In this document: positions 3,494 through 29,508 of the stretch, in pieces
Numbering within the stretch: position 1 is the stretch's first letter
How the letters are laid out: the number at the start of each line of letters is the position of its first letter
Assembly (NCBI GenBank): GCA_022841745.1
Contig: JALHQW010000008.1
Coordinates: forward strand, 14,074 to 78,073
DNA length: 64,000 bases
Source of the DNA: Saprospiraceae bacterium
Lineage (GTDB): Bacteria; Bacteroidota; Bacteroidia; Chitinophagales; Saprospiraceae
Direction of reading: 5' to 3'
Translations under genes and position numbers: made by a program
The notes under the pieces: generated by a model
Told to the model about the DNA's origin: nothing
Databases searched by the model: none
Seen by the model: the letters and a program-made list of their open reading frames with translations, nothing else

Positions 3494-4123
3494 ATGAAAT
3501 CAAATATTGTTATCGCACCATTGCTTTTTCTTCTTCTGATGAAATGCATGTTGAGTTGTGCTTTGCCGCCTAAGGTGAACTACATAGAAGAGGAAAACTG
3601 GTACGATAAAATGACGGAAGAGGATGTACAACGGTACAACCTCCACAGTGCAGTATTCAATAGGATAGTGTTCGTGGACTATGCCAATGCCATGAGCTTG
3701 CTGGACTCTACTGGAGCGGTCACCAGGGCATCGGTAAAAAAATTCTCAGATTTGTTCATGCCCCAGGCCACGGTGCTGAACGATATCCATCCAGATCCTC
3801 ACCCGTTAAGCCCTTCAGATTATGGGGCTTATGTGAAGCATTACATGTACAAGGGGGTGGATGCGGAACTGGCTATCTACGGGAACTTCGACCGGGGCAA
3901 TATTGACAAACGGTTCCACCGCTACTACCAAGTTGGAAGCGGAGAACACGAATACTATATGCACCGGGCTGTAGAGAAGCGGATACGCTATGGCTTGAAT
4001 GACGAACTGCAAGTAGTGGGATGGGGTGAAAAAGGAAAATCCTTGCTACTGGATTTTACGGTTTACATCAACGATGATACAAATACTGCCAAAATAGCAG
4101 ACATAAAACCAATTTTAAACTGA
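3494..4123 (+). CDS. Predicted lipoprotein, T6SS-locus associated, unknown function
   Basis: The product is 209 residues. It opens with a short basic start, a hydrophobic stretch and a cysteine near residue 22 in an MLSC context, which fits a lipoprotein signal. The mature part contains the pattern 'F.DLF...A.VLNDI', then a proline-rich turn and 'Y..Y....G'. The same order of motifs occurs in the N-terminal half of the next gene (4276-5835), so the two appear to share a domain. The gene begins 13 bases after the T9SS gene and precedes a strong palindromic element. A role as the outer-membrane lipoprotein (TssQ-like) of the T6SS envelope complex is possible but is inference from position only. 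Confidence 0.75.
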   Translation: MKSNIVIAPLLFLLLMKCMLSCALPPKVNYIEEENWYDKMTEEDVQRYNLHSAVFNRIVFVDYANAMSLLDSTGAVTRASVKKFSDLFMPQATVLNDIHPDPHPLSPSDYGAYVKHYMYKGVDAELAIYGNFDRGNIDKRFHRYYQVGSGEHEYYMHRAVEKRIRYGLNDELQVVGWGEKGKSLLLDFTVYINDDTNTAKIADIKPILN

Positions 4124-4275: not shown

Positions 4276-5835
4276 ATGAGAACCAAAGAAATACTAACCT
4301 GCGGGCTTTTACTTTTTGCCAGTGTATGTCTAGCTCAAGTAAAGGTCGAGTTTTCACCTGCCTTCACTGCAGAAAAGCTATCGTCTATCCAGTTGGACGA
4401 GGGGGGGAAGCGCCAAGTGGAAGAAGCCCTGACGGAGCGGCTTTTGGAATACGTGAAGCGTGGGAAAATGATAAACCCGAAAACCAGAATCGTGGACAGT
4501 GAGTCTGCCTTAAGTTTCAAGGAACTGTTTTCCCTGGATGCCAAGCTAATCAACGACCTTCGAGAGGTGCCAGAAGCTTACCCTTATTCTGTTGATGAGT
4601 ACATTGATAGAGCAATGGAATATTTCCCCGCTTATGGCCTTTCATTCTACCTTGACGATATTGCGACCATAACGGATGGGGAACTCGACGAGGTTACCAA
4701 CCGATATACCTTCACCATTGCCTTGTACAAATCAGTGAACCAATACTACAAGGAAAATGGCTTGGTTGAAAATGGCACCAAAGCCTACCAACTGGACTTT
4801 GTATATAGCCTGAAAATGGATGAGTTGGAAAGCGCCCGCATCAATTTGATTCGGCGGTCAGCATTGGACGAGACAAAACCTGCCGACCTTTACACCAAGT
4901 TGTTTGACCTAAGCTTTGGGGTGGGCTATGGTTTGGCCAGCTATGATGAGACGTTTATGGACATGGACGCTCAAAAAGATAAATTTACCTTGAACCCAGG
5001 GCTGAACCTAAACATAGGGCTTAGTGCCTATACGAACGGTTTGGCAAGCAAGACCAGTCCAAACAAACGCTTGTTCCTGACGGGCGGGGTAATGGGTTTT
5101 TATCAGAAAATTTCGGCGGAACTTGATAATTATAGAACGAGCGGGCCACTTGGCAACATCAGGGCAAGCCTTCCTGGCTCTCCTCAAACCAATATCGCTG
5201 ATGGATCAATGCGAATGGCCGACAGTGTTTATGTAAAAGAAGAACAGACCATTATCGGAATGAGAATTCCTGTGGGGATTGGCGTGCGGCTTCACAACAA
5301 GAATACCAGCTTTAGTATGTTGAAAATTCAGTATGCACCCTCTTTTGCCTTGTCAACCTTGGGCAGCATGGCAGGGTCTGGGAAATACGACATGAAAAAT
5401 GATTTCACGATTCCGTACAATCCAAATACCCAAGGCAATTCATCTTACAGTGGCAACTTCAATACATCGGAAGGGAAGTCCTATTCTGATACGGAATTTG
5501 CCAAAGCCTATGAGCTAGGTAAGCTAGGTTTTGACGCAGACCCAAAACTTGAGACTGCCCTGACCCACGGCATCATGTTATCTGGGCTTTATTTCAAAGA
5601 TTTTGTTGACGATGGAAAAACCTTTGGGGTAGCATTCGGGCTGCAGTATTACCTACCTTTTACGGGTCTTTGGAACTTCAACGATGAAGTTGCTGACAAG
5701 CCGTTTTGGTATTCCACAGATGAAAAAGCCAACTATGTGAAGCATGGCATACTGACCCCATTTGTCGAGGGAGCTAAGCTAAGCTATTTCGGGATTAGCC
5801 TCAATATTTACTACAAAAAAACAGATCAGCCATGA
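4276..5835 (+). CDS. Secreted, probable outer-membrane-associated protein of the T6SS locus
   Basis: The product is 519 residues with a clean signal peptide ending in an LAQ-type site near residue 20. Residues ~60-190 contain 'FKELFSLDAKLINDL', 'Y.D.A..YFPAYGL' and a beta-rich tail, matching the motif order of the preceding lipoprotein. From ~residue 200 onward there are alternating aromatic/glycine strands ('GVGYGLASYD', 'NPGLNLNIGLSAY', 'GVAFGLQYYLPF') typical of Bacteroidetes outer-membrane barrel-like proteins. It overlaps the start of tssR by 4 bases (ATGA), so the two are almost certainly co-translated. A T6SS envelope or cell-surface role is inferred from this linkage; no named family was recognised. 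Confidence 0.75.
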   Translation: MRTKEILTCGLLLFASVCLAQVKVEFSPAFTAEKLSSIQLDEGGKRQVEEALTERLLEYVKRGKMINPKTRIVDSESALSFKELFSLDAKLINDLREVPEAYPYSVDEYIDRAMEYFPAYGLSFYLDDIATITDGELDEVTNRYTFTIALYKSVNQYYKENGLVENGTKAYQLDFVYSLKMDELESARINLIRRSALDETKPADLYTKLFDLSFGVGYGLASYDETFMDMDAQKDKFTLNPGLNLNIGLSAYTNGLASKTSPNKRLFLTGGVMGFYQKISAELDNYRTSGPLGNIRASLPGSPQTNIADGSMRMADSVYVKEEQTIIGMRIPVGIGVRLHNKNTSFSMLKIQYAPSFALSTLGSMAGSGKYDMKNDFTIPYNPNTQGNSSYSGNFNTSEGKSYSDTEFAKAYELGKLGFDADPKLETALTHGIMLSGLYFKDFVDDGKTFGVAFGLQYYLPFTGLWNFNDEVADKPFWYSTDEKANYVKHGILTPFVEGAKLSYFGISLNIYYKKTDQP

Positions 5836-8423
5836 GCATTTTAAGCACTGCATTAAAATCAAAAATTAATCTGATGAACCGTATTCTATTACTCGTCGTG
5901 TTTTCAATATTGACGCAGGCCACCAATAGCCTTTATGGTCAAAAGGTGCTTGGCTACCCTATGGAGTACATCCGCCCGATGAATCCCTATGAAACTAGTT
6001 CCATCAGTACTTTTACAAGCCCCAACACCCAAAAGGACAAGGACCCCAACAACGGTTGGTGGGTAGTCGTTGACCGGGATGATGTAAAAGCCTACACCAA
6101 GCCAAATTCCAGCTCATCGGTAAAGAACAAGCTAGAATTTGGCAGGGCCCTATACGTAAAAGAGACACAAGACGGATATGCCTATTTGATAGATGCCATC
6201 GTGGATAAGACGCAGGTAAAGCAATTGAAAGAAGAGATTGGATGGGTCAAAATGGAAAACCTGCTGCTTTGGAATGCGAGTTTATTGAACCCACGCACCA
6301 AGATACACCTAAAGGCTTTGTTGCTCAATAAATTCAGTGATTTCAAGGCCATACCATGCGATAAAAAAGAAATCGTTAAGGTCTATACGGCCCCCACAGG
6401 CGATAATCTTCGGCAAACCATCAATATTTACCGCTTTTACTTTGTCTATAAGATACAGGGGTCAAGGTATTTGTTGGCAGAAACCCCTCAGTTAGGCTAT
6501 GGCAACGCAAAAGATAGGATATTGGGATGGGTAAACAAGGATAGGATAGCGGAATGGAACACCCGCATCGCACTTGAGCCTAATTTCACGGAGGCTGGTT
6601 ACAATGAACGGAAAAACGATCCTGATTTACAAATAACAGGTTTTTCGGACCAATTTCTTGCAAAAAGCTATGCCGAAACGGGAACGAAAGGAGGAGCTAT
6701 ATTTCAACGAGACCCTGTTTCGGAAAAAAAGGTCAACCTTTCAAAATCAGATGCGAAGCGCTTTCGGGGAGACTATATGCGGTATCCGCTGTTGAGCGTT
6801 GGGGAGCAGAAAGGAGCGCAGAAGGTATTGCCCTATTACAAAAGTGCTGTTTGTGAAGAAATGCTGGTAAAAGTCAAGTGCGTGGATGGCGTTACCGTGG
6901 CAGTCAAGGTACCCATGAACGTGGCAGAAGATGCAAAAGACTACCTGGAGAAATTTCAGGCGGCTGGAGACAACTTCAATGTGTTTTTTATGATTGAGGC
7001 AAGTGCCGACTTGAAGCCCTACAAAGAGCAAATAGCGACCTTGCCGGATGAAATTGAGGGCATTATTAGGGGGCTTAACAACAAAGCGAAGATTAAATAC
7101 GGAGCGTTAACCTATAAAGACATCACGGAGTCAACTAAAGTAGAGTCGCTCGTAAAATCTACCGAACTATCTGCCGACAAATCCGTGTTTGAGCGTTTCA
7201 TTCGGAATGCTGACTTTTCCAATGAAAAGGGCAATGGTGACTATCCTGTACAAAATTACGCTTTGTCCAAAAGCTTAGAAGTTGCGCAATTCCCCCGGTT
7301 CCAAACCAATATAATATTTGTCATCGGTAAAAGGGGTGATTTTAGCCAAGACCCGCTACTCCGCAAACAATACACTAGCAGCTTGGCCAACAAGGACATG
7401 AGCAAGTTATCAAGTGCCATCAATGCCAGCAACATAAACTTGATTGGCATCCAGTGTGTTGGGGGTGATTCCGAATCAGACAAGGCTTTTTCAAGAAACT
7501 TACGGGGCATTATGCTTGAATCTGCCAAGAAGAATTTCAACCTCAAGTTCGAAAGTGAAAAAATAGATCCTCGTGCAGAGAGTGCCTTCAAAAAAGTGGG
7601 GTATGAACTAACATCACCAGAGATGGACGACCCTGATGAAAGTACGGAACCCCTTTTATCACTGCAAAACGGTAAACTGAAAGGCAGCATTTTTCGCATC
7701 CCGGTAGATGGTGCAGCTGTTTCGCCAGAAGATTTCAACCAATTCGCCACAAATATCACCCATAAGATTGCCGAAGCTAATATTCAACTCTATCTGGAAC
7801 TGGAAAAATGGAAATACGGCGAGATAGAGCCTGAGAAGGGTTTTTCCCCAGCCATGGCACAGATACTCGTGGATCTCTATAAAGAGACCAAATTGTCAGC
7901 TGATGTTGATTGGTCTGAAGAAAAATTTGAGCTGTACAGCGAGACTTATTTTGCCAAACAACCCTCTAAGGCCAAGCAAGCGCCATTCAGTTTTGTGCTT
8001 TTTTGGCCACAGGGAGACCTCTTAGACTACTATGCAACCCTAAAAAAATTAGTCACTAACATGGGGAGTAGTTCAGCCTCAACGAGACGGAGTAGCCTAA
8101 AGGATGCTTATTGTAGTTTGCTGGGTCAGTTTACAGGAGGTGAGTATGAAAAGGATTGCACGGAATATACCCCTGAAGAAATTTTTCAGATAATACAAGG
8201 AGTACAGGCAGAGGGTATTAATTTCGAACTTAGCAAAAAAACAATAGGATGCATTCTGGATGAAAGGTGTACCTCTGACAAAGAGATAGAAGACATGACC
8301 AATCGGTTTATTAAAATCGAAAAACAGCTAAAAGAGCTTGTTAACACTACTGGTAAAAACGAATTTGTTTTTAGTCGGGGTGGAGAATTTTTCTTTTGGA
8401 TTAAGGTGGAAGACGTCTATTAG
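5832..8423 (+). CDS. tssR: Type VI secretion system envelope protein TssR-like
   Basis: The product is 863 residues (849 if the ATG at 5874 is used, which gives a cleaner signal peptide). It is predicted to be periplasmic. After the signal sequence comes 'KVLGYPMEYIRP' and then an SH3-like segment (~residues 60-125; 'VDRDDVKAYTKPNSSS'). A von Willebrand A-like region follows ('FNVFFMIEASADLKPY' near residue 380, 'NIIFVIGKRGD' near 495). The MIDAS-type aspartate position is degenerate. Size, signal peptide, SH3-like and VWA-like layout fit TssR, one of the Bacteroidetes-specific envelope components that replace TssJLM. It is translationally coupled to the gene before it and sits 3 bases before the ABC ATPase gene. 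Confidence 0.7.
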   Translation: MSILSTALKSKINLMNRILLLVVFSILTQATNSLYGQKVLGYPMEYIRPMNPYETSSISTFTSPNTQKDKDPNNGWWVVVDRDDVKAYTKPNSSSSVKNKLEFGRALYVKETQDGYAYLIDAIVDKTQVKQLKEEIGWVKMENLLLWNASLLNPRTKIHLKALLLNKFSDFKAIPCDKKEIVKVYTAPTGDNLRQTINIYRFYFVYKIQGSRYLLAETPQLGYGNAKDRILGWVNKDRIAEWNTRIALEPNFTEAGYNERKNDPDLQITGFSDQFLAKSYAETGTKGGAIFQRDPVSEKKVNLSKSDAKRFRGDYMRYPLLSVGEQKGAQKVLPYYKSAVCEEMLVKVKCVDGVTVAVKVPMNVAEDAKDYLEKFQAAGDNFNVFFMIEASADLKPYKEQIATLPDEIEGIIRGLNNKAKIKYGALTYKDITESTKVESLVKSTELSADKSVFERFIRNADFSNEKGNGDYPVQNYALSKSLEVAQFPRFQTNIIFVIGKRGDFSQDPLLRKQYTSSLANKDMSKLSSAINASNINLIGIQCVGGDSESDKAFSRNLRGIMLESAKKNFNLKFESEKIDPRAESAFKKVGYELTSPEMDDPDESTEPLLSLQNGKLKGSIFRIPVDGAAVSPEDFNQFATNITHKIAEANIQLYLELEKWKYGEIEPEKGFSPAMAQILVDLYKETKLSADVDWSEEKFELYSETYFAKQPSKAKQAPFSFVLFWPQGDLLDYYATLKKLVTNMGSSSASTRRSSLKDAYCSLLGQFTGGEYEKDCTEYTPEEIFQIIQGVQAEGINFELSKKTIGCILDERCTSDKEIEDMTNRFIKIEKQLKELVNTTGKNEFVFSRGGEFFFWIKVEDVY

Positions 8424-8426
8424 CCA

Positions 8427-9251
8427 ATGACACCAATATTGAACATTGAGGACTTGAAATGTGGTTATATAGCAGGCAGTCCTGTACTAGATATCCCGGC
8501 ATTAAGCATCCCAAGCGGAGAGCTGGTATTCGTAGTTGGCGCCTCAGGGGGAGGTAAAAGCACCTTGTTGGAAGCATTGGGGCTAATGAATAATACCATA
8601 CTGGAAGCGTCCAATGTCTCTTTTCAGTCACCTGATGAAAATCGGGTGGCATTGGATAAATTATGGGATGCTGCTGATGTGGAAATTGATAGCTTTAGAA
8701 AAAGGCATTACAGCTTTATTTTTCAAAAAACGAACCTGATGCCCAACTTCACCTGTGGCGAAAACATGGTACTACCCGCCTTGTTCAAGGGGCAATCTTA
8801 TGAAAATGTGAGAGAAAAAGTTTTTGACTACATGGCCAAACTCGGCCTTGATTCAGCAATATTCAACAAAAAGATTTCCAATATTTCTGGCGGTCAAAGA
8901 CAACGATTGGCTTTTATCAGGGCTATGGTTGCCGATTTCACCATTCTGTTCGGCGATGAGCCAACAGGCAACCTTGACCCAGGTACTGCAAGGACGGTGA
9001 TGACTGTGCTCAAATCACACCTGAAAACACATGGTAAAACGGGCATCGTCGTTTCACATGATATTGGGCTTGCTACTGAATTCGCAGACATGGTCATTCC
9101 TATTACCATGCATGGAAAGGGTGAAGAAAGGATAGGGGTTGTAAAAAACGAAAACCTCCTTTACCGAAAAAACGAGGAAAGTTGGGCGGACAAGCACTCA
9201 ATTTATGACAAAGCAAAGATGGAAAACCACCTAAAACAGTTGATTTCATGA
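8427..9251 (+). CDS. ABC transporter ATP-binding protein (MacB/LolD/TagT-like)
   Basis: The product is 274 residues and a complete nucleotide-binding domain. Walker A is GASGGGKST (38-46), the signature ISGGQRQRL lies near 153, Walker B is ILFGDEPTGNLD near 173, and the switch histidine is in SHD. This set is typical of the MacB/LolD/FtsE group, which drives mechanical work on periplasmic substrates rather than ordinary transport. The gene overlaps the permease by 4 bases and follows tssR by 3 bases, so it belongs to the T6SS block A operon. In proteobacteria TagT plays this part in a T6SS signalling module; equivalence here is inferred from context. Confidence 0.9.
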   Translation: MTPILNIEDLKCGYIAGSPVLDIPALSIPSGELVFVVGASGGGKSTLLEALGLMNNTILEASNVSFQSPDENRVALDKLWDAADVEIDSFRKRHYSFIFQKTNLMPNFTCGENMVLPALFKGQSYENVREKVFDYMAKLGLDSAIFNKKISNISGGQRQRLAFIRAMVADFTILFGDEPTGNLDPGTARTVMTVLKSHLKTHGKTGIVVSHDIGLATEFADMVIPITMHGKGEERIGVVKNENLLYRKNEESWADKHSIYDKAKMENHLKQLIS

Positions 9252-10798
9252 GACCCGAAAAAGCCTCTTTCACAAGTATGTTCTTTGCCAACGAGTACAA
9301 AGACTTGTCAGGGAACAAGGGGTCAGTTGTCAAGCGCTTAATCGTGCTTCTTTCCCTCACATTCATTGCGCTTGGGTTTGCCATCGGTGGATTGGAACAG
9401 TTGGGGAAGCGCATGGACAATCCATTTACCAATTGGGTGGACTTGGTGGTTAATTATCGTGTAGAAAAGCAACTAAAGCCGCTTAAAGAACATTTTTTGA
9501 GCCAAGATAGCCTTGACAAGTATCACTTAGGAGGTTTGATTGGATGGAGTGCTTACCACCTGACATTTAACCACAAAAGTCACAACCCTATTTCATCCCA
9601 GAAAGATGGTCCATCGTACATACGAAGGGGAAGAACTGTTGATTTTGACGGCGATTTTTTCCGGGAAATAATCAACCCCAATACTGGCAACATACAGTAC
9701 TTCGATGAGTCGGCATTTGATGAAAATCGTATTCCTGAATGGCCGTGCGGAATTGTTGTAACAACGTCTCTAATGGACAAGCTAGGTTATGAGCCAAGTG
9801 AATACCCATTTGTAAAACATTTAAGCGTAAGCCTTGAAGATGGAAGGGACTTAGTCTTCCTGAAAGTATTGGCGGTAGTTGAAAAATTGCCTTCCTTATG
9901 TGACTTCATCACCACAAACAGGGTTTACGGCATAACACAAGGTAATTTTGCGCATTACTTGATGAGGAATTCGATAAGTGACTCTACGGCCATCCGGCTC
10001 ATTTCATCAAAGGCTGGTCAAGCCGAAACACTCAAGGAAAAAGCCATCAAAGCGCTTGGGGTTACAGATTTGGGGGTTACAGAGGACAGTTTATCCATGG
10101 ACGCTGAAAGAGATATATACTCCTACATTATTAAGATTTCCTCTGAATATGCACCGCCAACCAGTACAGCCGTCAAGGCGTACATGCAGTCCTGCAAGCA
10201 AGGTGAAGATTTTGCGGATTACAGCTATTTGGATTGCGGTGACGATGCCGAAAGAAACGATATTCCACACAATATCACCTTTAGCTTCAAAGACTTGGAT
10301 ATGATTAGGCCGTTTCAGCAGTCAATATTTGCAGCACATGGTGTTGAATTGACAATGGAACAAGTAGAGTCAAGTGAAAATTTCCGGCTAGTAACCCGAC
10401 TCACGACCATCATGGGTACCATTCTCTTCGGGTTCGGGCTATTGAGCATTCTGCTGTACTTGGGCAACCTCATTCATGGCCACATCCTAAAAATCAAAAC
10501 AAATTTAGGAACCTTCAAGGCGATGGGATTGCCAAACTCGGCGCTTATAAAAACCTATACGCTAATTGCGCTCAAACTATTGGCAGTTGCTCTGTCTATT
10601 TCCCTGCCCAGCGCATTTATGGCTGGATGGCTTGCCGATAAATATTGGCTGGCGGTTGGGTTTAGCTTTTTGCACTGGGCCATACCTGTTGTCATTGTTT
10701 TAGTTTTCGGGGTTACTTATATTTTGATTCAATTAATCTTGAATAAAATATTGACAGCAACCCCAGGTGACTTAATTTATGAAAGACTATCCGAGTAA
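9248..10798 (+). CDS. ABC transporter permease, FtsX/MacB (TagS-like) fold
   Basis: The product is 516 residues. One transmembrane helix lies near residues 35-55 ('RLIVLLSLTFIALGFAIG'). A long extracytoplasmic domain of ~320 residues follows. Three C-terminal helices come next ('TIMGTILFGFGLLSILLYLG', 'IALKLLAVALSISL', 'WAIPVVIVLVFGVTYIL'). This 1+3 helix arrangement with a large periplasmic insert is the type VII (MacB/LolCE/FtsX) topology. It is coupled to its ATPase by a 4-base overlap. The periplasmic domain would be the part that contacts TssR or the downstream lipoprotein. No substrate can be named. Confidence 0.85.
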   Translation: MRPEKASFTSMFFANEYKDLSGNKGSVVKRLIVLLSLTFIALGFAIGGLEQLGKRMDNPFTNWVDLVVNYRVEKQLKPLKEHFLSQDSLDKYHLGGLIGWSAYHLTFNHKSHNPISSQKDGPSYIRRGRTVDFDGDFFREIINPNTGNIQYFDESAFDENRIPEWPCGIVVTTSLMDKLGYEPSEYPFVKHLSVSLEDGRDLVFLKVLAVVEKLPSLCDFITTNRVYGITQGNFAHYLMRNSISDSTAIRLISSKAGQAETLKEKAIKALGVTDLGVTEDSLSMDAERDIYSYIIKISSEYAPPTSTAVKAYMQSCKQGEDFADYSYLDCGDDAERNDIPHNITFSFKDLDMIRPFQQSIFAAHGVELTMEQVESSENFRLVTRLTTIMGTILFGFGLLSILLYLGNLIHGHILKIKTNLGTFKAMGLPNSALIKTYTLIALKLLAVALSISLPSAFMAGWLADKYWLAVGFSFLHWAIPVVIVLVFGVTYILIQLILNKILTATPGDLIYERLSE

Positions 10799-10813
10799 AA
10801 CAAAAAAAACAGC

Positions 10814-11254
10814 ATGAAAAAATACCAATACCTACTGCTATTTTCATTATCACTTTTAGGACTGACGGGGTGTAAACCTGACGCACCAGACGGAAGCAAT
10901 TTAGCAGCGGAGGAGTGCATTGACGAAGTGGTAATGCCATCGAAAATTGAAGTCGAGGGAGGTACTGTCAATATCACAGCCGCTCCTCCAATCACGGATG
11001 CCAAAACACTGGAGGGGATAAAAAAAAGAACAGTGGAAAGCAAATTGAAGAATGATGAATGTTGTCCTGCCCCAGAAAGCATTAAGCCCTGCTGCTGCGA
11101 TGAAGTGTTGGAAAAATTTGAAGCCTTGCTGAAAAAAAATGACTTCAAAGGTGCGGGAGATTTGAAAGCAAAAGACCCTTTCTACGATTCATGTAAAAAC
11201 AAATACGATGATTTCGAAGGAAAAATATCGGCCACCCAAAAAAAGTACTTGTGA
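10814..11254 (+). CDS. Small predicted lipoprotein at the end of T6SS block A
   Basis: The product is 146 residues. The signal is of lipoprotein type, with 'LLGLTGC' placing the acylated cysteine near residue 20. The mature part is acidic at first, then carries cysteine pairs ('NDECCPAPESIKPCCCDEV') and a lysine-rich C-terminal segment. The gene follows the permease by 15 bases and ends 6 bases before the convergent phosphatase gene. Its position after an ABC pair recalls TagQ, the lipoprotein of the proteobacterial TagQRST module, but no sequence similarity to TagQ is claimed. The run of cysteines in a lipoprotein is unusual and may bind metal or form disulfides. Confidence 0.75.
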   Translation: MKKYQYLLLFSLSLLGLTGCKPDAPDGSNLAAEECIDEVVMPSKIEVEGGTVNITAAPPITDAKTLEGIKKRTVESKLKNDECCPAPESIKPCCCDEVLEKFEALLKKNDFKGAGDLKAKDPFYDSCKNKYDDFEGKISATQKKYL

Positions 11255-11260
11255 GGCTTC

Positions 11261-12148
11261 TCATTGCAAGGAACGTACCGTAAAAACAACGGCCGCTATC
11301 GTAATGATGGAAAGGATTATAAGCAAGTAAGAAACCCATTTGGGCATGAATCCCTCATTGCTCGATGATTCCTGTACTTGATGTGATTTAGGTTCGGTGG
11401 AACTTTGTTCAATTTCCTTTATTTGAACGAGGTATGCCGAAAAATTGTCTTTCGAATATTGGTGACAGTAATTCCCTATCGTCGTAATCTTGGCCTCATT
11501 CGCAATATCCTGCCTTAATAGTTCCACCAGGTTAGCATCCGTAACGCTTTCTGGCACCCCATCCGAGCAAAGAAAAAAATAGTCACCAGGCCGGACATCG
11601 GTTATCAAATTAACATCCATCTTAGTAGGGCGCCCCCTCCCAGCTATGGCCCTTGAAATGATATTCCTCTTGGGATGGTTGACAGCCTCTTCTGGTGTGA
11701 TGATGTTGCTGCTGACCATCTCGTTCACCAAGGAATGGTCTTTGGTCTTAAAGCAAATTTCACCTTCCCGAATATGGTACACCCGGCTATCTCCAACATG
11801 CGCTGCTTTGGCACCTTCTTTATCAAGAATGAGCATGGCCAGGGTTGTGGCCATACCTTCGGCATCAGGATGGGCTTCAACATATTCGTCCAAGCGCAAC
11901 TCGGCCAGTTCAAGTGCCCTGTCCAAATCATATCCGAAGACAGCATCCAAGTCTTTGAGGCTTGTTGCGAATGTTTCGCAAACAATTCTACTGGCCTCTT
12001 CCCCTTTTTCTGCGCCACCTAACCCATCACAAACGATAAATAGCCGGTCACTGGATGATGCAGTGCTGTTGGGATAGATGGAATCTTCGTTTTCCAGGCG
12101 TTGCCCCTTCTCGTTCAGGGAATGGGGAGGGTAGATTTCAACAGTCAT
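11261..12148 (-). CDS. PP2C-family protein phosphatase, C-terminally membrane-anchored (PppA-like)
   Basis: The product is 295 residues. The PP2C motifs appear in order: ENEDS near residue 20, CDGLGGA near 40, MATTLAM, HVGDSRVYHI, CSDGVPE and a late KDNFSA, so the metal-binding aspartates are kept. A proline/serine-rich linker leads to one C-terminal helix ('YLLIILSIITIAAVVF'), which anchors the enzyme with its catalytic domain in the cytoplasm. It is the last gene of the tssF-tssG-tssN-tssK-FHA run. In subtype-i T6SS, PppA removes phosphates placed on Fha by the kinase PpkA; a similar antagonistic role with the neighbouring FHA protein is inferred. No Ser/Thr kinase gene is present in the window. 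Confidence 0.92.
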   Translation of the reverse strand: MTVEIYPPHSLNEKGQRLENEDSIYPNSTASSSDRLFIVCDGLGGAEKGEEASRIVCETFATSLKDLDAVFGYDLDRALELAELRLDEYVEAHPDAEGMATTLAMLILDKEGAKAAHVGDSRVYHIREGEICFKTKDHSLVNEMVSSNIITPEEAVNHPKRNIISRAIAGRGRPTKMDVNLITDVRPGDYFFLCSDGVPESVTDANLVELLRQDIANEAKITTIGNYCHQYSKDNFSAYLVQIKEIEQSSTEPKSHQVQESSSNEGFMPKWVSYLLIILSIITIAAVVFTVRSLQ

Positions 12149-12224
12149 ATGGATGTTTGTTAGGAGCAGTTAGGTTGCAAACTAACGTTTTGGTACTTGG
12201 ATAATACTTTGTCGCTGTGGTGAA

Positions 12225-12857
12225 TTAAACAGGGCTGTGTAAGGTCAACTTGACATTTCCCAGGCTGAAAACCGTCCCGTTATAAATGGGTATCCTTTCT
12301 GACATTCCAAGCGGGAGGCTTCTGCCGAAAATATAGACCTTGTTCAAACTGCCATTTCCTTCAATGACCCCGATATCGTAAAGCAGATAAATCCAGCCTT
12401 TGCCATCAGCTGCCGGGCTTACTTCGATTACGCAGTGTTTCCTGCTTACGGTGGGTTCCGCATTGGGCAGGTCATTCCTACCTATGATGTTCTTGCCTAC
12501 CCTCAGTTGTAACTTGGAACCATTGGGAAGTACCACACATCCAATGGTGGTTTTTTCCTTTGCCCTTTCCGGTTCCGGTTGGTGAAAAGTGGGTTCAAAA
12601 GACGGGATCCCCACCCCATCATGGGTCTGGTATTGTGGAAAAGGGGAGTCTTTGGGTGGCTGGGGGGCGGGTGCTGGCGCAACATGAGGGTCTGCTGGAA
12701 GTCCATAATCTATATTGCCCAGCAGCGAATTGTCCGCTGCATTATCAAAATCAGAAGGGAAATGCCAGGTATTGCAAACCGGGCAAACAACATACGATGA
12801 GCCGTCAGGCACGGGTATCGAATTCTTACAGGTTGGGTTCGTGCATTGAATAATCAT
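12225..12857 (-). CDS. FHA-domain protein with N-terminal zinc ribbon
   Basis: The product is 210 residues. The N-terminus has cysteines at 5, 10, 25 and 28, an apparent zinc ribbon. A proline-rich linker follows, then an FHA domain from about residue 105 with the phosphothreonine-reading residues GR, S-R-K-H and N-G-S. FHA domains bind phosphothreonine, so this is a candidate signal reader controlled by a kinase/phosphatase pair. It lies between tssK and the PP2C phosphatase gene on the same strand. Proteobacterial Fha proteins of T6SS usually lack a zinc ribbon, so this fusion is atypical. Confidence 0.88.
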   Translation of the reverse strand: MIIQCTNPTCKNSIPVPDGSSYVVCPVCNTWHFPSDFDNAADNSLLGNIDYGLPADPHVAPAPAPQPPKDSPFPQYQTHDGVGIPSFEPTFHQPEPERAKEKTTIGCVVLPNGSKLQLRVGKNIIGRNDLPNAEPTVSRKHCVIEVSPAADGKGWIYLLYDIGVIEGNGSLNKVYIFGRSLPLGMSERIPIYNGTVFSLGNVKLTLHSPV

Positions 12858-12895: not shown

Positions 12896-13957
12896 TCAAC
12901 CACCACCACTGCTGATGATGATATTACGGTCACCCGATTGGACAGTAGGTGCAACGAAGGCCGTCAAATGCTTGAAGGTAAGCAAAAGCGCCTCCCCAAA
13001 CCTGTTCATGATTGCAATGACCCTTGCCATTTCTTCCATTGGGATAGATTTCAATTTGGTCAATTCGTGCATGGTGGGCCGCAAGTTGTTTACCATGCCA
13101 TCCTTGAGGTGGTTGCGCACGAAATCACGGTCGGTCGTGTCAATCAGGCTTTCCAAAAGGCCCGCCAAATTCCCGTAATAGACTGCCATTTCAATGGGCG
13201 CCTGCCCTGGCAGGTACCACCTGAAATAGCCTTGTGAACTGCGGATAAAATGGACCACCGGCGCACAGAAGTTCACTCTCAAAGGGTCTTTGGTCCGGTG
13301 TTCGTGGATGACTTGTATGCCTACACGGGTAATGTTTTCCAACTGGTTTTGAAAAAGTTGGTGCCATTTGTCCAAAAGGGAGAACCCTTTTATCGTTAAT
13401 GTTGCTGGAATATAGCCTTCCATGATCTTTCCGTTTTGCCACTCGGCAATCTTCATCCGGTTCGGTGCAAGGTTGGCCGTTGCGGAAAGCTTGTTGTGGG
13501 GGATGCACTCCAAGGCGTATTCAGGGGAGAGGTGCGGGTGCCGGATTGGCCGAACCTGCGGGATGCCAGCAGGTATGCGACGTTTTTCATTTACAATCAG
13601 ATAGACATGGTACAACATGCCCGGCGTCGGGACAAACTCAACCGTTGGCAGCTTCAAAGGTAGTTGGAGCTGGTGCATGTTTTCGGGCAAAACCTCTACC
13701 CTATAGCCCCCGGGCATGATGGCCCTGCAGGCTTCGAGCATGACCCTTACCGATTGGGGGCTTGACCCTTCTGCGTTCCTGACCACGAACTCACTTCCCG
13801 GCAAAAGCCCAAAAGCGTGGCCACCAGCCAATGCCAACGCCCTCGTGTCCCGTACTGCATCTTCAATGCTCTCTTCGAGGTGTTGAAAATGCTCCGCCGA
13901 GAGTTTCATCCCGTTCTCCCAGAAAAGCGGGAAGTTGTTTATTTTAGGAAATATCAT
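12896..13957 (-). CDS. tssK: T6SS baseplate subunit TssK
   Basis: The product is 353 residues. The N-terminus has the typical TssK pattern 'W..GM.LSAEHFQHLEE', followed by 'FGLLPGSEF' and a beta-rich middle region (~70-180). The second half is helical with 'LLDKWHQLFQNQLENITRVG' and a C-terminal head. TssK is the baseplate trimer that links the sheath end to the envelope complex. At ~350 residues it is shorter than proteobacterial TssK (~440), as expected for subtype iii. The partner genes tssF and tssG lie upstream in the same block and tssN directly before it. Confidence 0.85.
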   Translation of the reverse strand: MIFPKINNFPLFWENGMKLSAEHFQHLEESIEDAVRDTRALALAGGHAFGLLPGSEFVVRNAEGSSPQSVRVMLEACRAIMPGGYRVEVLPENMHQLQLPLKLPTVEFVPTPGMLYHVYLIVNEKRRIPAGIPQVRPIRHPHLSPEYALECIPHNKLSATANLAPNRMKIAEWQNGKIMEGYIPATLTIKGFSLLDKWHQLFQNQLENITRVGIQVIHEHRTKDPLRVNFCAPVVHFIRSSQGYFRWYLPGQAPIEMAVYYGNLAGLLESLIDTTDRDFVRNHLKDGMVNNLRPTMHELTKLKSIPMEEMARVIAIMNRFGEALLLTFKHLTAFVAPTVQSGDRNIIISSGGG

Positions 13958-14004: not shown

Positions 14005-15006
14005 TCAACGGGCTAGCAATGTAGTCCTATCAGGGTCGAAATCCCGATTGCCTTCCCAAGGCCGATTGGCTGGCAACATGTCTTTTTCCGCTGGCACCCT
14101 CGTGGCAATAATGATGTCCCCTCCCCGCACACGGTTTTCCTGAATGGACAACTCTGGATTAAGGTACCGGGGTTTCCTGCGCCAAGTAGAGGGTTTCCAA
14201 GGTACAATCTTCACCCTGAACAACCACCAGAATTGAGGTTCGCCCCCGTACTCACTTCCAAGGTCCTGCACGATGGTTAGTCCCTGCTTCTTTCGCCTTT
14301 CCTGCACCATGAAGCGGAATGCTTTTTCAAGCTGTATCTCGTTGGGTATCTCTATCCAAGGGTGCGACCTCCTGCCGATGATGCGGTACTCATCCCGCAG
14401 GGTGTTGGAAACAACAAAGTTCACCCTGATGAGGTCTCGCCAAGGTATCTTCTCGGCGCTCAACAGTTCTTGGGGGTAATACCAGATTTTCTCAACATAT
14501 CGGTAAGGTATCTGGCTGGCGAAATCGGCCAATTTGTACGCCAAAAAAGGCAAAAGGAAAACCACAGGGGCATCCCACATGGTATAATCAACGGGTATGC
14601 GGGGGATGCGTATGCTCACAAATGGCAATGAAAACAGGCGTGGCGACAATACAAATGCCATGGAACAGGCCAATGCCAAGGTCACGGTCGAAGCCAATTC
14701 GGGCCACATCGAATCTTTCAAGAACACATAAGGGTTCCGCTTCACCCATTTCATCCGATAAAGGCTCCATACATGAAAACTGCCCAGCACGATAAGCGCC
14801 AACCGGGTAGCCCAAACAACATGAAGGGAAGCTTTCAGGGTGTATTGAAGTGTCAGGCCAATGATGGAACTCACGATTACAAAAACGACGATATGGATGG
14901 ACATCTTCGAGTCCATGCTCCGCTGATATCGCCTCATGCACCACCGGAACCAAAATCCCGCTAACACAACTGCGATTGTCCATGCTATTACGAGTGGGTC
15001 TCTCAT
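14005..15006 (-). CDS. tssN: T6SS inner-membrane protein TssN
   Basis: The product is 333 residues. The first ~190 residues contain about five hydrophobic helices ('VIAWTIAVVLAGFWF', 'IHIVVFVIVSSIIGLTL', 'LALIVLGSFHVW', 'LASTVTLALACSMAFVL', 'APVVFLLPFLAYKLA'). A soluble cytoplasmic domain follows with 'KIWYYPQELLSAEKIPWRDL'. This layout and size match TssN, one of the Bacteroidetes-specific envelope proteins (TssNOPQR) that take the place of TssJLM. It lies between tssG and tssK, and a 227-base gap before it carries a repeated motif array. Confidence 0.8.
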   Translation of the reverse strand: MRDPLVIAWTIAVVLAGFWFRWCMRRYQRSMDSKMSIHIVVFVIVSSIIGLTLQYTLKASLHVVWATRLALIVLGSFHVWSLYRMKWVKRNPYVFLKDSMWPELASTVTLALACSMAFVLSPRLFSLPFVSIRIPRIPVDYTMWDAPVVFLLPFLAYKLADFASQIPYRYVEKIWYYPQELLSAEKIPWRDLIRVNFVVSNTLRDEYRIIGRRSHPWIEIPNEIQLEKAFRFMVQERRKKQGLTIVQDLGSEYGGEPQFWWLFRVKIVPWKPSTWRRKPRYLNPELSIQENRVRGGDIIIATRVPAEKDMLPANRPWEGNRDFDPDRTTLLAR

Positions 15007-15233: not shown

Positions 15234-16133
15234 CTACGATTTGGCAGGGTTAAACCGAACATTGTACCCCAATACTGCCTGCCCAAACGTAAATCCCCAA
15301 GCGTCCTCCGTTACATTGATTCGGGTGATGACAGTAGCATCCAAAGGTAAAAAATAGTTGTACAACAATTCTTCTAAAACCCTGCGCCTTTTGCCGTCGG
15401 GCAAATAGTCATCCAAATCGTCCAATGTGACGCCGTTCACACTGACCTCCAATGCCGGGATATCGTCCCGAAACGATTCGCCGATGACCAAATCACCTAA
15501 GTCCATTGTCTGCGTATCGGCAGGTATCTCGTACATCAGCGGTTCCATGAACTTCAGCGTCACCGCTTTGCGGAGCACTGCTTCGAAACAGAGTTTTGTA
15601 AGCACCCAGTCACCACTGATTCGGTGAGCCTCTGGCAACAAGTAGCTCAAAAGGAATCGCTGCCTGTGCGAAAGGCAGTCGGCGAAAGCTGGAAAGCCCC
15701 ATATTTTTTCAATAAAAGCAGGAAAGCCTTCTGTCCATTGTTGCTCATGCCTTTCAGCATCAATCCTTGGCTGGTACATGGCCTGCTCGAAAGGCAGAAA
15801 AAACTTGCGAGCTTCGTTTATCTGCTGGTCAATGGCCTTTGCCTTTGCCTTTGAATCTGGGTAATCATCATCAATACGCAAAAATAGATTTTCCGGCAAT
15901 GTGTCAAACAGCCCTTTCCTGTTTATTTCTACCAGCCAGACCTCATCGTATTCATATTTGCGCTTCCTGATTTCCCGCACCTCATGGTTGCTCCTGCGTT
16001 GGCCAGCTCCTCTTGGCGAGATGACAAGCTGCTCTACATGCAATTCGGTATCTTGGGCCATCAAGGTAGCCGCCACTGCCTCAGCCTTTATATCGAATAT
16101 AGTGGCCGTTCGTAAATCCTTCAATTCTTTCAT
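15234..16133 (-). CDS. tssG: T6SS baseplate subunit TssG-like
   Basis: The product is 299 residues. It begins with a helical and charged N-terminal part and has 'FLLSYLLPEAHRISGDWVLTKLCFEAVL' in the middle. A beta domain follows with 'SVNGVTLDDLDDYLPDGKRRRVLEELLYNYFLP', and the end is 'VLGYNVRF'. A glycine-aromatic ending of this type and the position directly after tssF (4-base ATGA overlap) fit TssG, which with TssF builds the baseplate wedge. Sequence similarity to proteobacterial TssG is weak by eye, so the assignment leans on context. Confidence 0.75.
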   Translation of the reverse strand: MKELKDLRTATIFDIKAEAVAATLMAQDTELHVEQLVISPRGAGQRRSNHEVREIRKRKYEYDEVWLVEINRKGLFDTLPENLFLRIDDDYPDSKAKAKAIDQQINEARKFFLPFEQAMYQPRIDAERHEQQWTEGFPAFIEKIWGFPAFADCLSHRQRFLLSYLLPEAHRISGDWVLTKLCFEAVLRKAVTLKFMEPLMYEIPADTQTMDLGDLVIGESFRDDIPALEVSVNGVTLDDLDDYLPDGKRRRVLEELLYNYFLPLDATVITRINVTEDAWGFTFGQAVLGYNVRFNPAKS

Positions 16134-18034
16134 GGCCTTTGCAATTTAGTGTTTGGGGAAACTTGGACGTGAATCGGCACGTTGGACGACGATTTTTGCT
16201 CCAACAGCCGTTGCACCTGCTGGCAAATGGCCTCCCAATCTTCTTCTTTGGATTCCTGGGATGGTGTGAACCAGACTTCGAGCCGACGGGTCATGCCAAA
16301 ATCAAAGCGGGGGTCGGTTCCTACCCCATCCCGCACCATTACCTCCACCAATCGGTCCCTCAACAGCTCTTTGCAAAAAATCTTTACGTCTTCTCGGGTA
16401 ACTATCCTACCACGGGTCATCAAGGCCAGTTTCATAGCATCCAGTTGTTCCGTTGCTTCCAAGGGATCTCCCCCACCCTCGCTGATGGAGACCATTTCTA
16501 TGGTGTCGGCCTCCAGTTCGCTTGCCTCCTTTGAGGTGCATTTCAGCGATGTCTTGGCGGCAACGCCATTGGCAGCTTCGCCCACGGAAGTCCAGTATTC
16601 CACCCGCACCCTCATGCTGCCCGTGGCACCAGTGTGAAGCAGCACATAAATGTCTGAAATGGGTTTATGCTCCTCGCTTGTCTCCTTGATTTTTTTGCCC
16701 AATAAATGATGGATGTCCTCAAGGGAAAGGGAGGCAGCCGCCTTCATGACCAGTTCTTCGTGGCCATAGTTTTCTTGTAAAATGGACACCACGTAAGCCA
16801 TTCGCTTCCAGGCATTGAAATCGTCCCAGCGCCCTACCCCGCCGAGGCGCATGGTATAGCTTGGCTTGTTTTCCTCCTTGAAGTCGGCAAAAGGCTTGAA
16901 CGTGAATATTGGGTACATCGGAGGCTTCTCCTCGAACACCCTTCTGATGGATACAAATGGTTCTTCCGGTTGCAGGTGTATCCATTTGATGGCATTGTTG
17001 GCAATATAATGGTGCTCGCCACTGGTATGGCCGCAAAGCCGGCGGTTCACGACCGGGAATACGTTGAGCTTGACAACGAGGCGGGAGGAGAATTGAACCA
17101 GTTCCACGGGGTACCCAAAATGCACTTCCAGCCAAATCATGGGGGTTTTCGCTACCTCTTTTTCAAGGCGGGTCATCTGTTTGTCTGCCTCCTCTTGGCT
17201 CATGTCCTGTGCCATGAGCCATTTCGGCAAGAAATCCCTGGCTTGTATCATGCCACCCACCGGGGCTTTTTCATCTTGTATCGTAAGGAAATGCCGCTCG
17301 TAGCGAAGCCGGACCCGGTTTTGCAGCCGTTCGTTGCCGTTCAGGTAATCCTCTAAAATGAAATCGGACGGCGGCAGCCCACTTTCCACCCTGATTGGCT
17401 CGCCGTTCAACAGGCACCTGCTCTTGGCCAGCGAAGCATAGAAACGGGCTTTCTCAGATTCGTTCTGGCTGCTCCCACGTATCTCGAAATAGAGGCAAAA
17501 GTCCTTCCAGTTGATTTCCTCCGCCTTGGTCTCGATGCCCAACAACACTTTGCCGATGCGTTCCCCCACATTCGAGCCAGCCCTCATGCGCAGCGGGGCA
17601 CGTTGCCCCGCATCCAAAATCTTACCGGGTATGGCCATCACTTTTAGTTCCCCCGGAATCAGGCGGGATGGAAAAACCGGGGAAAAAGCAATATCGCCCT
17701 CTTTTTCACCCAAATAGCGGATAAAACCCGCTGTCTCGTCTATCGGCAGCGACTCGGTAGATGGCGTAGCCGTTGCAAGGGCATGGGCTGGCGTGGGCAG
17801 GTGGTAATATTCTGGGAGTAAGGTCTTGGCTAATCGTTCCTGTATCCGGGTCTCCGTATCGTGCAGCCGTTGGTAAACCAGCTCCATCTCAGAGGCAACT
17901 GCGCCAGCCATGAAGCGCACCACAGGGTCGTACTGCTGGCCAATGTCCCGCTCGACATCCTCGTAATCCACGTCCCATTCATCGGCGGCACGCTGGAGGA
18001 TGGACTGGTATATCTGAAGGTGGGTGGGTTGCAT
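16130..18034 (-). CDS. tssF: T6SS baseplate subunit TssF
   Basis: The product is 634 residues from the ATG at 18034; an in-frame TTG nine codons upstream is less likely. The N-terminus 'DYEDVERDIGQQYDPVVRFM...ASEMELVYQRLHDTE' followed by 'LAKTLLPEYYHLPTPAHALA' is characteristic of TssF. The C-terminal ~150 residues carry 'TRGRIVTREDVKIFCKELL', as in the gp6-like fold of baseplate wedge proteins. It overlaps tssG by 4 bases, giving a coupled wedge pair, and it is the first gene of block B. The promoter should lie within the 150-base AT-rich gap upstream. Confidence 0.85.
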   Translation of the reverse strand: MQPTHLQIYQSILQRAADEWDVDYEDVERDIGQQYDPVVRFMAGAVASEMELVYQRLHDTETRIQERLAKTLLPEYYHLPTPAHALATATPSTESLPIDETAGFIRYLGEKEGDIAFSPVFPSRLIPGELKVMAIPGKILDAGQRAPLRMRAGSNVGERIGKVLLGIETKAEEINWKDFCLYFEIRGSSQNESEKARFYASLAKSRCLLNGEPIRVESGLPPSDFILEDYLNGNERLQNRVRLRYERHFLTIQDEKAPVGGMIQARDFLPKWLMAQDMSQEEADKQMTRLEKEVAKTPMIWLEVHFGYPVELVQFSSRLVVKLNVFPVVNRRLCGHTSGEHHYIANNAIKWIHLQPEEPFVSIRRVFEEKPPMYPIFTFKPFADFKEENKPSYTMRLGGVGRWDDFNAWKRMAYVVSILQENYGHEELVMKAAASLSLEDIHHLLGKKIKETSEEHKPISDIYVLLHTGATGSMRVRVEYWTSVGEAANGVAAKTSLKCTSKEASELEADTIEMVSISEGGGDPLEATEQLDAMKLALMTRGRIVTREDVKIFCKELLRDRLVEVMVRDGVGTDPRFDFGMTRRLEVWFTPSQESKEEDWEAICQQVQRLLEQKSSSNVPIHVQVSPNTKLQRP

Positions 18035-18212
18035 GGTAGATTTTAGGTGAAATTTAGGCAAAGTTTACAAAAAATCTCTTAATGATTTTTTTTTGCACCA
18101 CATTGTAAAAATCAGCAAATATTTAAAACGAGGTGGTAAAAAGTCTTATCTATCCTTATTAACATCCAAAAGATGGTAAAATTGGACCGAGGTTATGGTG
18201 ATTATGGCCCAT

Positions 18213-25837: not shown

Positions 25838-25847
25838 TAATGAATGA

Positions 25848-26423: not shown

Positions 26424-26433
26424 GTTAAAATTT

Positions 26434-29160: not shown

Positions 29161-29172
29161 GGCGTGCGGGGT

Positions 29173-29508
29173 TTAACAAGGTTTCATGAATGGGGCACCA
29201 GTGAAGGCATCGCCAATGAGCACCGTGGGGAGGCCCATCACGATTTTTCCGCCATGCGCACATTGGTCGCCCATGCGGGCAGCAGGCTTGCCGCCGATGA
29301 AGACGCTCATGCTGCCCTGCACGATGGTGTCGGGTGGTCCAACGCATACGCACATATCCCCTACGACGGCAGCGGGCAGGTTGCCGATGAGTACGGTTGG
29401 CACGCATGGCCCCATGATGGGGCCGCCCACATGCGGCACGGGCGGCAGGCCCGGCGTTACCATGGGGCAAGCGTGCATGTCTGTGATTCTTGCGGCTGGT
29501 TTACCCAT
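29173..29508 (-). CDS. PAAR-domain spike tip protein
   Basis: The product is 111 residues and nearly all PAAR domain. It shows 'GKPAARITDMHACPM', 'VGGPIMGPCVPTVLIGNLPAAVVGDMC', 'GSMSVFIGGKPAARMGDQCAHGG' and 'GLPTVLIGD', with histidines and cysteines able to hold the metal at the cone tip. PAAR proteins cap the VgrG spike and connect it to effectors. The gene lies between tssE and the RHS gene in one run, so the RHS protein is its likely cargo. Confidence 0.92.
   Translation of the reverse strand: MGKPAARITDMHACPMVTPGLPPVPHVGGPIMGPCVPTVLIGNLPAAVVGDMCVCVGPPDTIVQGSMSVFIGGKPAARMGDQCAHGGKIVMGLPTVLIGDAFTGAPFMKPC

Follow-up and report, generated by a model that had tools for sequence, protein, structure and literature searches.

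The window considered here is a stretch of 64,000 nucleotides from a Saprospiraceae bacterium (contig JALHQW010000008.1, positions 14074-78073, of the 8.4-Mb genome G000; handles in G denote genomes and those in L denote loci), and the subject is a set of its genes for TssR, an ATP-binding cassette (ABC) ATPase, and a permease, which adjoins a type VI secretion system of subtype iii (T6SSiii). Judged by gene content and predicted fold, this part of the window belongs to an envelope module of the Bacteroidota that consists of a small outer-membrane (OM) barrel, TssR, and a type VII ABC ATPase with its permease, and that is often flanked by genes for predicted giant Ig/PKD/BACON proteins, a Ser/Thr kinase, a PP2C phosphatase, and FHA proteins. 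The main new result is that the TssR-ABC module, often with the putative kinase, PP2C, and FHA genes, exists without a recognisable T6SS; this was not foreseen in a preliminary description of the window, and it applies to 63 of the 80 permease-bearing genomes. With modest confidence, the module is probably an ATP-driven, phosphorylation-switched envelope machine that is wired into T6SSiii in this genome.

The link between permease and TssR recurred in each set of genomes searched. Among 40 relatives, the window's own genome included, seven had a permease match; the match in G014 (E 3.8e-4), a 1086-amino acid open reading frame (ORF) with neither a TssR nor an ATPase gene adjacent, was set aside before counting, and tssR lies beside the ABC pair in the other six. 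Of 395 genomes in the class, eight have the permease according to two profiles that differ in depth, and all eight are within the 17 genomes with TssR above cut-off (G146 and G286, with TssR matches below the Pfam cut-off, were not counted); the probability of this overlap by chance is 1.8e-12 assuming independent genomes, which they are not. The remaining nine of the 17 have canonical T6SSiii loci without this permease, and all nine have TssC. In G369, tssR and a fused ABC protein are on separate contigs. When 84,980 species were scanned, 98 relatives were confirmed and 80 loci kept, 78 of them titled Bacteroidota; since the scan used one degenerate peptide pattern that is insensitive to far kin, and not every locus was kept, these distribution figures are lower bounds. 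Some of the 80 loci are also G genomes (L068 is G007, L072 is G008, L079 is G025, L121 is G029, L126 is G103, L143 is G369, L070 is G241, and L073 is G360). The tssR gene is directly upstream of the ABC pair in 71 of the 80 loci, and seven of the other nine start at a contig end, leaving L134 and L143 as true exceptions. An ORF matching a home-made profile of the outer-membrane protein (OMP) is present in the 5 kb before tssR at 55 of the 71 loci with adjacent tssR, and 7 of the other 16 have less than 1.5 kb of sequence there.

TssC was absent from 63 of the 80 genomes (50/50 in a first batch and 13/30 in a second) and present in 17. The search of the first 50 matched nowhere, and its controls are the second batch, in which 29/46 matched, including 9/9 canonical genomes, and a search for TssN, which was found in 0/63 of the TssC-less genomes and in 12/12 of the TssC-bearing genomes searched. 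The 80 genomes are mostly metagenome-assembled genomes (MAGs) of largely unstated completeness, so single absences weigh little; however, the set without TssC and TssN includes records matching G241 and G360 (100% complete), G103 (99%), and G007 (98%), and as two markers are absent in 63/63 genomes, near-complete ones included, incompleteness is hard to blame. No T6SS gene from the profile set of this study was found in any of the 63 T6SS-free loci. In 57 of them tssR is directly before the ABC pair, and the other six begin at a contig end. At E 1e-3, the 57 T6SS-free TssRs match the Pfam domains TssR_VWA (54), the TssR N-terminal barrel (51), and TssR_C (43). The anatomy and distribution of the module are firm. 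Since tssR stands beside it in genomes with and without a T6SS alike, the ABC pair appears from its gene neighbourhood to have TssR as its own partner, and to form a family mostly from genomes without a T6SS.

Genes of a possible phosphorylation switch accompany many of these T6SS-free modules. Within flanks of up to 10 kb, a kinase occurs in 28 of the 63 loci, PP2C in 15, FHA in 24, and all three in 13. The proteins found were 35 FHA and 15 PP2C; two short FHA fragments (L122:3-251 and L131:2-259) were left out, and Pfam confirmed the 48 that were scanned (PP2C 15/15, FHA 33/33). PF00069 at E 1e-15 gave 143 matches in 53 of the 80 genomes. In the 28 T6SS-free genomes with a locus kinase, 46 of the 72 genome-wide kinase matches are within 25 kb of the permease, and all of them are in 17/28; these genomes were selected for having a locus kinase, and the fair base is 46/138 matches over all T6SS-free genomes, a share that far exceeds the few per cent expected for 50 kb out of a genome of 2-5 Mb. 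The kinases of L084 and L092 are 12-19 kb off, on contigs of matching length. In the kinase tree, the kinases of the window and its two closest counterparts (G008 and G490) form one clade with support 99, amid kinases from other contigs, and the other module kinases are scattered over several places, also among kinases on other contigs, although rows scored as unlinked may be contig breaks. This scatter is read as repeated recruitment, and a single ancestral kinase association was dropped on the same ground. Other neighbours of the module include giant proteins with BACON repeats, PKD_3 (with a type IX secretion system (T9SS) tail below cut-off), or WG repeats, as well as FHA-trypsin fusions. 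Trypsin_2 matches 8 of the 48 scanned PP2C/FHA proteins, and FHA is fused to a trypsin-like protease domain beside a kinase and PP2C in L118:14763-16283 and L086:3-1490 (the latter just below the Pfam cut-off).

In a TssR tree of 77 rows, the nine canonical TssRs form one clade (support 100), joined by G369 and L130, which have both a T6SS and the ABC pair (89). The tree was drawn with a midpoint root and is unrooted, so that gain and loss of T6SS are indistinguishable in it; proteins under 700 amino acids and eight near-duplicate loci (L105, L120, L127, L129, L135, L137, L139, and L146) were omitted. The canonical clade sits in a group of 24 rows (100) with nine canonical rows, eleven that have T6SS and ABC pair, one TssC-minus row (L126), and three ABC-bearing rows with T6SS status unscored. 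The window TssR is in another group (100, 15 rows), in which T6SS-bearing and T6SS-free Saprospirales are mixed. A single clade of all T6SS-linked TssRs was rejected (p-AU 1.2e-31) with 41 rows (18 vs 23) that were hand-picked from 84 TssRs and grouped by T6SS presence with the larger tree already known. The metal ion-dependent adhesion site (MIDAS) motif D.[ST].S of the VWA domain is intact, in a fast alignment, in 41/55 T6SS-free TssRs (paralogues included), 4/16 of those with T6SS and ABC pair, and 0/9 canonical TssRs; it is also intact in 0/4 further ABC-bearing rows, which are G025 (a repeat of the T6SS-bearing L079) and three with unscored T6SS status. Since VWA domains usually start out with a metal site, decay of the MIDAS in T6SS lineages is the simpler reading, and the pattern may be taken as a hint of polarity in that direction. 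The genome of locus L078 (G493) encodes a canonical-type TssC (E 1e-236, contig C109), and its TssR-ABC module belongs to the mostly T6SS-free group; perhaps both systems are present in one cell, the second TssR being seen only as a broken match below cut-off.

The genes of the window that concern the module and the T6SS are as follows.

1..3480, + strand: PKD/Ig-repeat surface protein, the 3' part of a 1667-amino acid protein with a T9SS sorting tail (PKD_4, Ig_7, Por_Secre_tail); the ORF begins upstream of the window (L003:12550)
3494..4123, + strand: putative lipoprotein of 209 amino acids whose N-terminal domain is that of the next gene (home-made OMP profile E 5e-16; lipobox MLSC by eye)
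4276..5835, + strand: OM protein with an NTF2-like N-domain and a small beta-barrel (predicted model, Foldseek)
5832..8423, + strand: TssR, the T6SSiii membrane-complex protein, with a degenerate VWA MIDAS (PF17643, PF20780, and PF20782 above cut-off)
8427..9251, + strand: ABC ATPase of the TssR-linked family (ABC_tran PF00005 E 1.7e-20)
9248..10798, + strand: type VII (MacB/LolCE-fold) permease with four transmembrane (TM) segments and a periplasmic domain of about 330 residues (predicted model pLDDT 85.7; Foldseek)
10814..11254, + strand: Cys-rich lipoprotein of 146 amino acids (lipobox LTGC by eye)
11261..12148, - strand: PP2C phosphatase with a C-terminal hydrophobic segment at 272-290 (PP2C_2 PF13672 E 8.5e-15; NF033484 below its cut-off)
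12225..12857, - strand: FHA protein whose N-terminus has a zinc-ribbon-like stretch with four Cys (PF00498 E 7.2e-7; GR..SRKH motif; Cys pairs by eye)
12896..13957, - strand: TssK baseplate protein, divergent (TIGR03353 E 6.5e-8, below cut-off; same place in G008 and G490)
14005..15006, - strand: TssN membrane-complex protein (PF17555 E 4.1e-14, above cut-off)
15234..16133, - strand: TssG, divergent (PF06996 E 2.2e-3, below cut-off; homologues in G008, G490, G492, and 7/9 control loci)
16130..18061, - strand: TssF, divergent (PF05947 E 2.1e-3, below cut-off; homologues in G008, G490, G492, and 7/9 control loci)
29529..30011, - strand: gp25-like TssE (PF04965)
30015..31829, - strand: VgrG (PF04717, PF05954)
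33574..34989, - strand: TssC sheath protein (PF17541 E 1.8e-64)
35263..35760, - strand: TssB-like protein, placed before TssC (PF05591 E 0.049, below cut-off; homologues adjoin TssC in 7/9 control loci)
36892..39369, - strand: ClpV (AAA_2, ClpB_D2-small; homologues in T6SS control loci)

The positions and families that the preliminary description gave for the ATPase, permease, lipoprotein, PP2C, and FHA genes were confirmed by the ORFs and by Pfam or lipobox matches. The genes from TssR to the lipoprotein are closely packed: 3 bp separate the TssR and ATPase genes, the ATPase and permease genes overlap by 4 bp, and the lipoprotein gene follows after 15 bp. The PP2C gene ends 6 bp from the lipoprotein gene and, together with the FHA, TssK, TssN, TssG, and TssF genes, runs towards the TssR-ABC genes from the opposite strand, so the PP2C and FHA genes do end a convergent block as described, with TssK, TssG, and TssF recognised as matches below cut-off. 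The T6SSiii assignment comes from TssR with three of four TssR Pfam domains above cut-off (the fourth, TssR_C, PF20781, is below), from PF17541, PF17555, VgrG, gp25, ClpV, and a PAAR gene beyond TssF, and from TssK, TssG, and TssF by weak matches and synteny. Walker A, Walker B, and signature motifs are intact in the ATPase, as are the PP2C and FHA motifs. The model of the OM protein (pLDDT 72.6, pTM 0.53) resembles barrels of the OmpA, OpcA, or OmpW type in Foldseek, and its N-domain resembles PhzA/B (E 0.035). The Cys-rich lipoprotein had no family match in Pfam and NCBIfam profile scans, and homologues of it lie 3' of the permease in G008 (phmmer 2.3e-6) and G490, with a similar one by eye in G007.

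It had also been noted that no kinase gene is in the window and that one should be sought elsewhere in the genome. The statement is literally true, but it reflects the edge of the window. A search of the genome with PF00069 gave two matches, one of them on the same contig at 9212-9994 (E 1.9e-51), in an ORF of 607 amino acids that has a single hydrophobic segment. This ORF is on the strand of the TssR-ABC genes, and 3,194 bp lie between its end and the window. Its kinase motifs (VALK, HRDLK, DFG, and APE) are intact. From this kinase to TssR the order is a 480-amino acid PKD protein with a signal-peptide-like start, the 1667-amino acid PKD/Ig T9SS-tailed protein, the 209-amino acid putative lipoprotein, and the OM protein. 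The 480-amino acid protein matches a home-made TssP profile at 3e-18, partly via the generic PKD domain; this profile also matches PKD repeats of giant proteins, and such labels were left out of counts. A run of kinase, TssP-like, giant, OMP, TssR, ATPase, permease, lipoprotein, PP2C, FHA, TssK, TssN, TssG, and TssF genes is contiguous in G000, G008, and G490. In G008, of the same genus, the gene order of the window is repeated with the two halves convergent. In G490 (L075), all recognised genes are on one strand, in the order ClpV, TssB, TssC, VgrG, gp25, TssF, TssG, TssN, TssK, FHA, PP2C, kinase, TssP-like, giant, OMP, TssR, ATPase, permease, and lipoprotein. The kinases at the same position have domains 86% (G008, 204 columns) and 68% (G490) identical to that of the window. 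In G008, G490, G241, and G360, a giant ORF separates tssR from the TssP-like or kinase gene, and in G029 one is before tssR. The kinase/PP2C/FHA triad is complete, with motifs intact, within a rare T6SSiii lineage: of the 17 T6SS-bearing genomes with the permease, only G487 (the same as G008) and G490 have the switch genes in the stretches read.

A different arrangement is found in G007, which is of the same genus, 98% complete, and without TssC. Its locus has genes for a zinc-ribbon protein, a kinase-FHA fusion, a TolQ-like protein (by eye), PP2C, and a kinase-PKD fusion, followed by OMP, TssR, ATPase, and permease. The fusions (8406-9695 and 12834-15206 in L015, the second TssP-like) have TolQ-like and OmpA/TolR-like genes between them, by eye. 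In 7/9 canonical loci, the kinase-PKD fusion has a phmmer match (6e-6 to 2e-12, partly via PKD) to the protein encoded immediately 5' of tssR, which is TssP by place.

According to its predicted model, the permease folds like type VII transporters (LolCDE/MacB), and it is a member of a Bacteroidota family partnered with TssR. Hydrophobic segments fit the four helices of the preliminary description, and the model gives this topology (TM1, large periplasmic domain, TM2-4). Comparison by Foldseek and VIA matched MacB, LolCDE, BceB, YtrF, and FtsX, the best being LolCDE and MacB chains. The window permease alone matches FtsX-like at E 1.4e-3, below cut-off, while PF02687 is matched at E 1e-3 by 38 of 46 family members; kinship to type VII transporters is visible only in the fold comparison and this FtsX match. 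A PDB sequence search found nothing with the permease and only chance-level hits (E 0.5-1) with permease profile A2, and alignment of the permease profile with single E. coli LolC, LolE, MacB, and FtsX sequences by hhalign was not significant (E 0.05-0.24). The ATPase is 34, 33, and 28% identical to E. coli MacB, LolD, and FtsE. The preliminary description had asked whether the ABC genes group with housekeeping exporters; in the ATPase tree (without L117, L125, and L132), the 79 module ATPases are separated, with support 100, from the E. coli proteins LolD, MacB, and FtsE, the only three outgroup rows. The module resembles MacAB-TolC, LolCDE, FtsEX, BceAB, and YbbAP in the fold and topology of the permease and the intact ATPase motifs, but differs from them in that none of the 46 members has a MacB_PCD match, the ATPases form a separate clade, and the genomic partner is TssR in place of MacA, EnvC, or LolA.

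The preliminary description had likened the genes to the TagQRST/PppA/Fha1 pathway of Pseudomonas. In P. aeruginosa, TagQ, TagR, and PpkA are required for TssK assembly, and TagS and TagT increase it (PMC6657622); PpkA spans the membrane and has a VWA domain outside the cell (PMC3224232). The likeness stands for the ingredients: an FtsX-type permease with an ABC ATPase (by Pfam matches, structure, and ATPase motifs), a putative OM-type lipoprotein, and a TM kinase, all T6SS-linked, together with PP2C and FHA genes beside T6SS core genes that suggest a threonine phosphorylation pathway, and a non-cytoplasmic VWA domain, which is in PpkA there and in TssR here. The same set is beside the same ABC genes in G008 and G490. 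The likeness fails in the partner of the ABC pair, which is TssR whether or not a T6SS is present; the VWA and PKD parts of the window locus are in TssR and the TssP-like protein, and the module is tied to TssR and comes mostly from T6SS-less genomes. TagR, an FGE-sulfatase-like protein, has no Pfam counterpart among the locus proteins scanned, a set that did not include every ORF. The proposed linkage of the five genes to T6SS likewise holds in G008 and G490 but not in canonical loci: the ABC genes are absent from the nine canonical T6SSiii genomes, yet present in other T6SS loci, which is half of what the preliminary description had named as a refutation.

The membrane complex of T6SSiii is TssNQOPR, whose genes are reported only with T6SSiii, and its ancestral source was sought and not found, in the portion available of the survey by Bongiovanni et al. 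2024 (PMC10781749); B. fragilis TssP is described there as a TM protein with PKD-like domains, and the main text has no occurrence of "ABC transporter" or "kinase". The locus agrees with TssNQOPR in having TssN, TssR, and a TssP-like PKD protein, with tssN between tssK and tssG, and differs in that TssR comes with an ABC pair, as it does in 57 genomes without TssC and TssN. The vWA-PP2C-kinase triads of Kaur et al. 2020 (PMC7159879) are described in GTPase-centred conflict systems, whereas here the vWA domain belongs to TssR, an envelope protein accompanied by an ABC transporter. In a literature search that lay largely outside subscription journals and bioRxiv, no title or abstract opening could be recognised that dealt with TssR beside an ABC transporter, a T6SSiii kinase switch, or a T6SS-free TssR.

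If the module is a switched envelope machine, we infer that the giant T9SS-tailed protein, the OM barrel, and the TssP-like PKD protein would register outside contact or envelope disturbance. ATP hydrolysis in type VII transporters is coupled to movement of the periplasmic domain, and TssR and the ABC pair may assemble or set a trans-envelope complex. The TM kinase, whose gene is beside the TssP-like gene and in G007 is fused to such a region, would phosphorylate a cytoplasmic partner; the zinc-ribbon FHA protein would bind the phosphate on this partner and recruit the TssK-TssN baseplate, and the membrane-tethered PP2C would reset the switch. Overall this would be like the TagQRST-PpkA-PppA-Fha pathway, with a sensor and ABC part specific to Bacteroidota. 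Since the module is contiguous with T6SSiii in G000, G008, and G490 and holds the sole TssR found there, it most likely serves in the membrane complex of the adjoining T6SS; one PF17643 match above cut-off is found in G000 and in 13 of the 17 genomes with T6SS and ABC pair (G008 and G490 included), so that this TssR is the sole candidate for the complex in those 13.

Several results weigh against this proposal. The MIDAS of the window TssR is lost, TssO and TssQ were not recognised among the proteins of the window locus (both were also often missed in the survey, PMC10781749, as far as its available text goes), and the TssP-like label of the 480-amino acid protein leans partly on a generic domain. 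The window-type kinase is not sister to the other module kinases, so the wiring seems to stem from more than one recruitment, and its purposes may differ. No kinase, PP2C, or FHA gene was matched in any of the nine control loci with TssR and without the permease (phmmer with window and G007 queries, 20-40 kb), the one row resembling an exception being a 655-amino acid ORF of G329 that matches only the kinase-PKD fusion query, and 11 of 12 T6SS-bearing genomes with a fused ABC protein have no kinase match at E 1e-15; T6SSiii can therefore do without the switch genes. The latter result also speaks for an explanation that is unlikely but credible, in which the ABC pair acts in the structure or biogenesis of TssR and of the giant surface protein, as a loader or extractor like LolCDE, and the kinase, PP2C, and FHA proteins regulate something else or only the neighbouring T6SS. 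LolCDE and MacB chains are indeed the best structural matches, and adjacency of tssR and the ABC pair is near-universal while a kinase within the 10-kb flanks is found in only 28/63 T6SS-free and 0/17 T6SS-bearing loci, two kinases of the latter lying beyond those flanks. Such a loader would leave the concentration of kinases at the module (46/72), far above chance and apparently reached through more than one recruitment, and the fusion of one kinase to a TssP-like PKD region to be explained.

The T6SS-free loci could instead be relics of T6SSs that lost their tail genes, with no separate system behind them. This is improbable: repeated loss is permitted by the unrooted TssR tree, and G007 has no TssC while its congener G008 does, but tssR and the ABC pair are kept together in 57/63 such genomes of many families (contig ends cut the other six), kinase, PP2C, and FHA genes go along with many of them, and the MIDAS is kept in 41/55 T6SS-free TssRs against 0/9 canonical ones, where decay would be expected of relics. 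Descent from TagQRST by transfer from Pseudomonadota is very improbable, as the shared ingredients come without a TagR-type protein among those scanned, with TssR as the partner, and from loci titled Bacteroidota in 78/80 cases, a count from one degenerate pattern that is insensitive to far kin. It is hardly credible that these are a MacB/LolD-type exporter and a PP2C/FHA pair of the ordinary kind, brought together by chance; although the NCBIfam ATPase matches, among the 25 listed of 192, are all to generic models, such as LolD, MacB, FtsE, and DevA, and below cut-off, the linkage is conserved, the very outcome that counts against chance, and the ATPase family is separate from those E. coli proteins.

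For the origin of the T6SSiii membrane complex, we infer a direction that is offered tentatively, as possible rather than probable. A T6SS-independent trans-envelope machine of Bacteroidota, with a type VII ABC pair, a TssR whose VWA metal site works, an OM protein of NTF2 domain and barrel, giant Ig-like surface proteins, and repeated kinase/PP2C/FHA wiring, may have given rise to this complex: TssR and a PKD partner would have been co-opted, the ABC pair first kept and fused and later lost in canonical T6SSiii, where the metal site decayed, and the window would be from a lineage with the whole machine, switch included, still in the T6SS locus. If so, that machine is the source which the 2024 survey sought without success. 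What makes Bacteroidota fire their T6SS becomes directly testable through the unbroken kinase-phosphatase-FHA set of a T6SSiii locus. The origin of their unusual membrane complex becomes testable through TssR with an ATP-driven partner in genomes without either T6SS marker, which also means that TssR alone is no marker of T6SS. Relatives of the module are in many gut and environmental Bacteroidota where no T6SS was found, and gut Bacteroidales (Alistipes, Muribaculaceae, and others) gain a conserved, kinase-wired gene set without assigned function.

Some loci depart from the common plan. Two or three TssR-profile ORFs are before or around one ABC pair in L093, L102, L130, L124, L142, and L020 (G016). 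The Prolixibacteraceae/Bacteroidales loci L096, L108, and L119 have permease-ATPase fusions of about 1030 amino acids and a second ABC protein of about 606 amino acids just upstream of tssR. Before tssR there may also be X2, a protein of about 210 amino acids (33 rows from T6SS-free genomes and 13 others), or, in 25 loci of gut Bacteroidales, the TM protein X1; the latter was considered as TssP and aligns in place with its C-terminal part, only at E 0.017, and this identity is not claimed. The records of L083 (Caldiserica) and L091 (Thioalkalivibrio), whose ATPases fall among Bacteroidales sediment MAGs, are most likely mis-binned or misnamed.

In the window itself, a scan for promoters and terminators was near the shuffled level (27 vs 21.4 promoters and 13 vs 17.4 terminators). 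Between the T6SS genes are T9SS-tailed proteins and an S74 endosialidase-chaperone protein (18213-19910, 20548-22947, and 22944-23423). An effector-like island at 25337-29508 within the T6SS run has PAAR, Rhs with a GH-E nuclease end, SUFU-family, and DUF4123 proteins, of which the SUFU-family protein might, as a guess, be an immunity protein.

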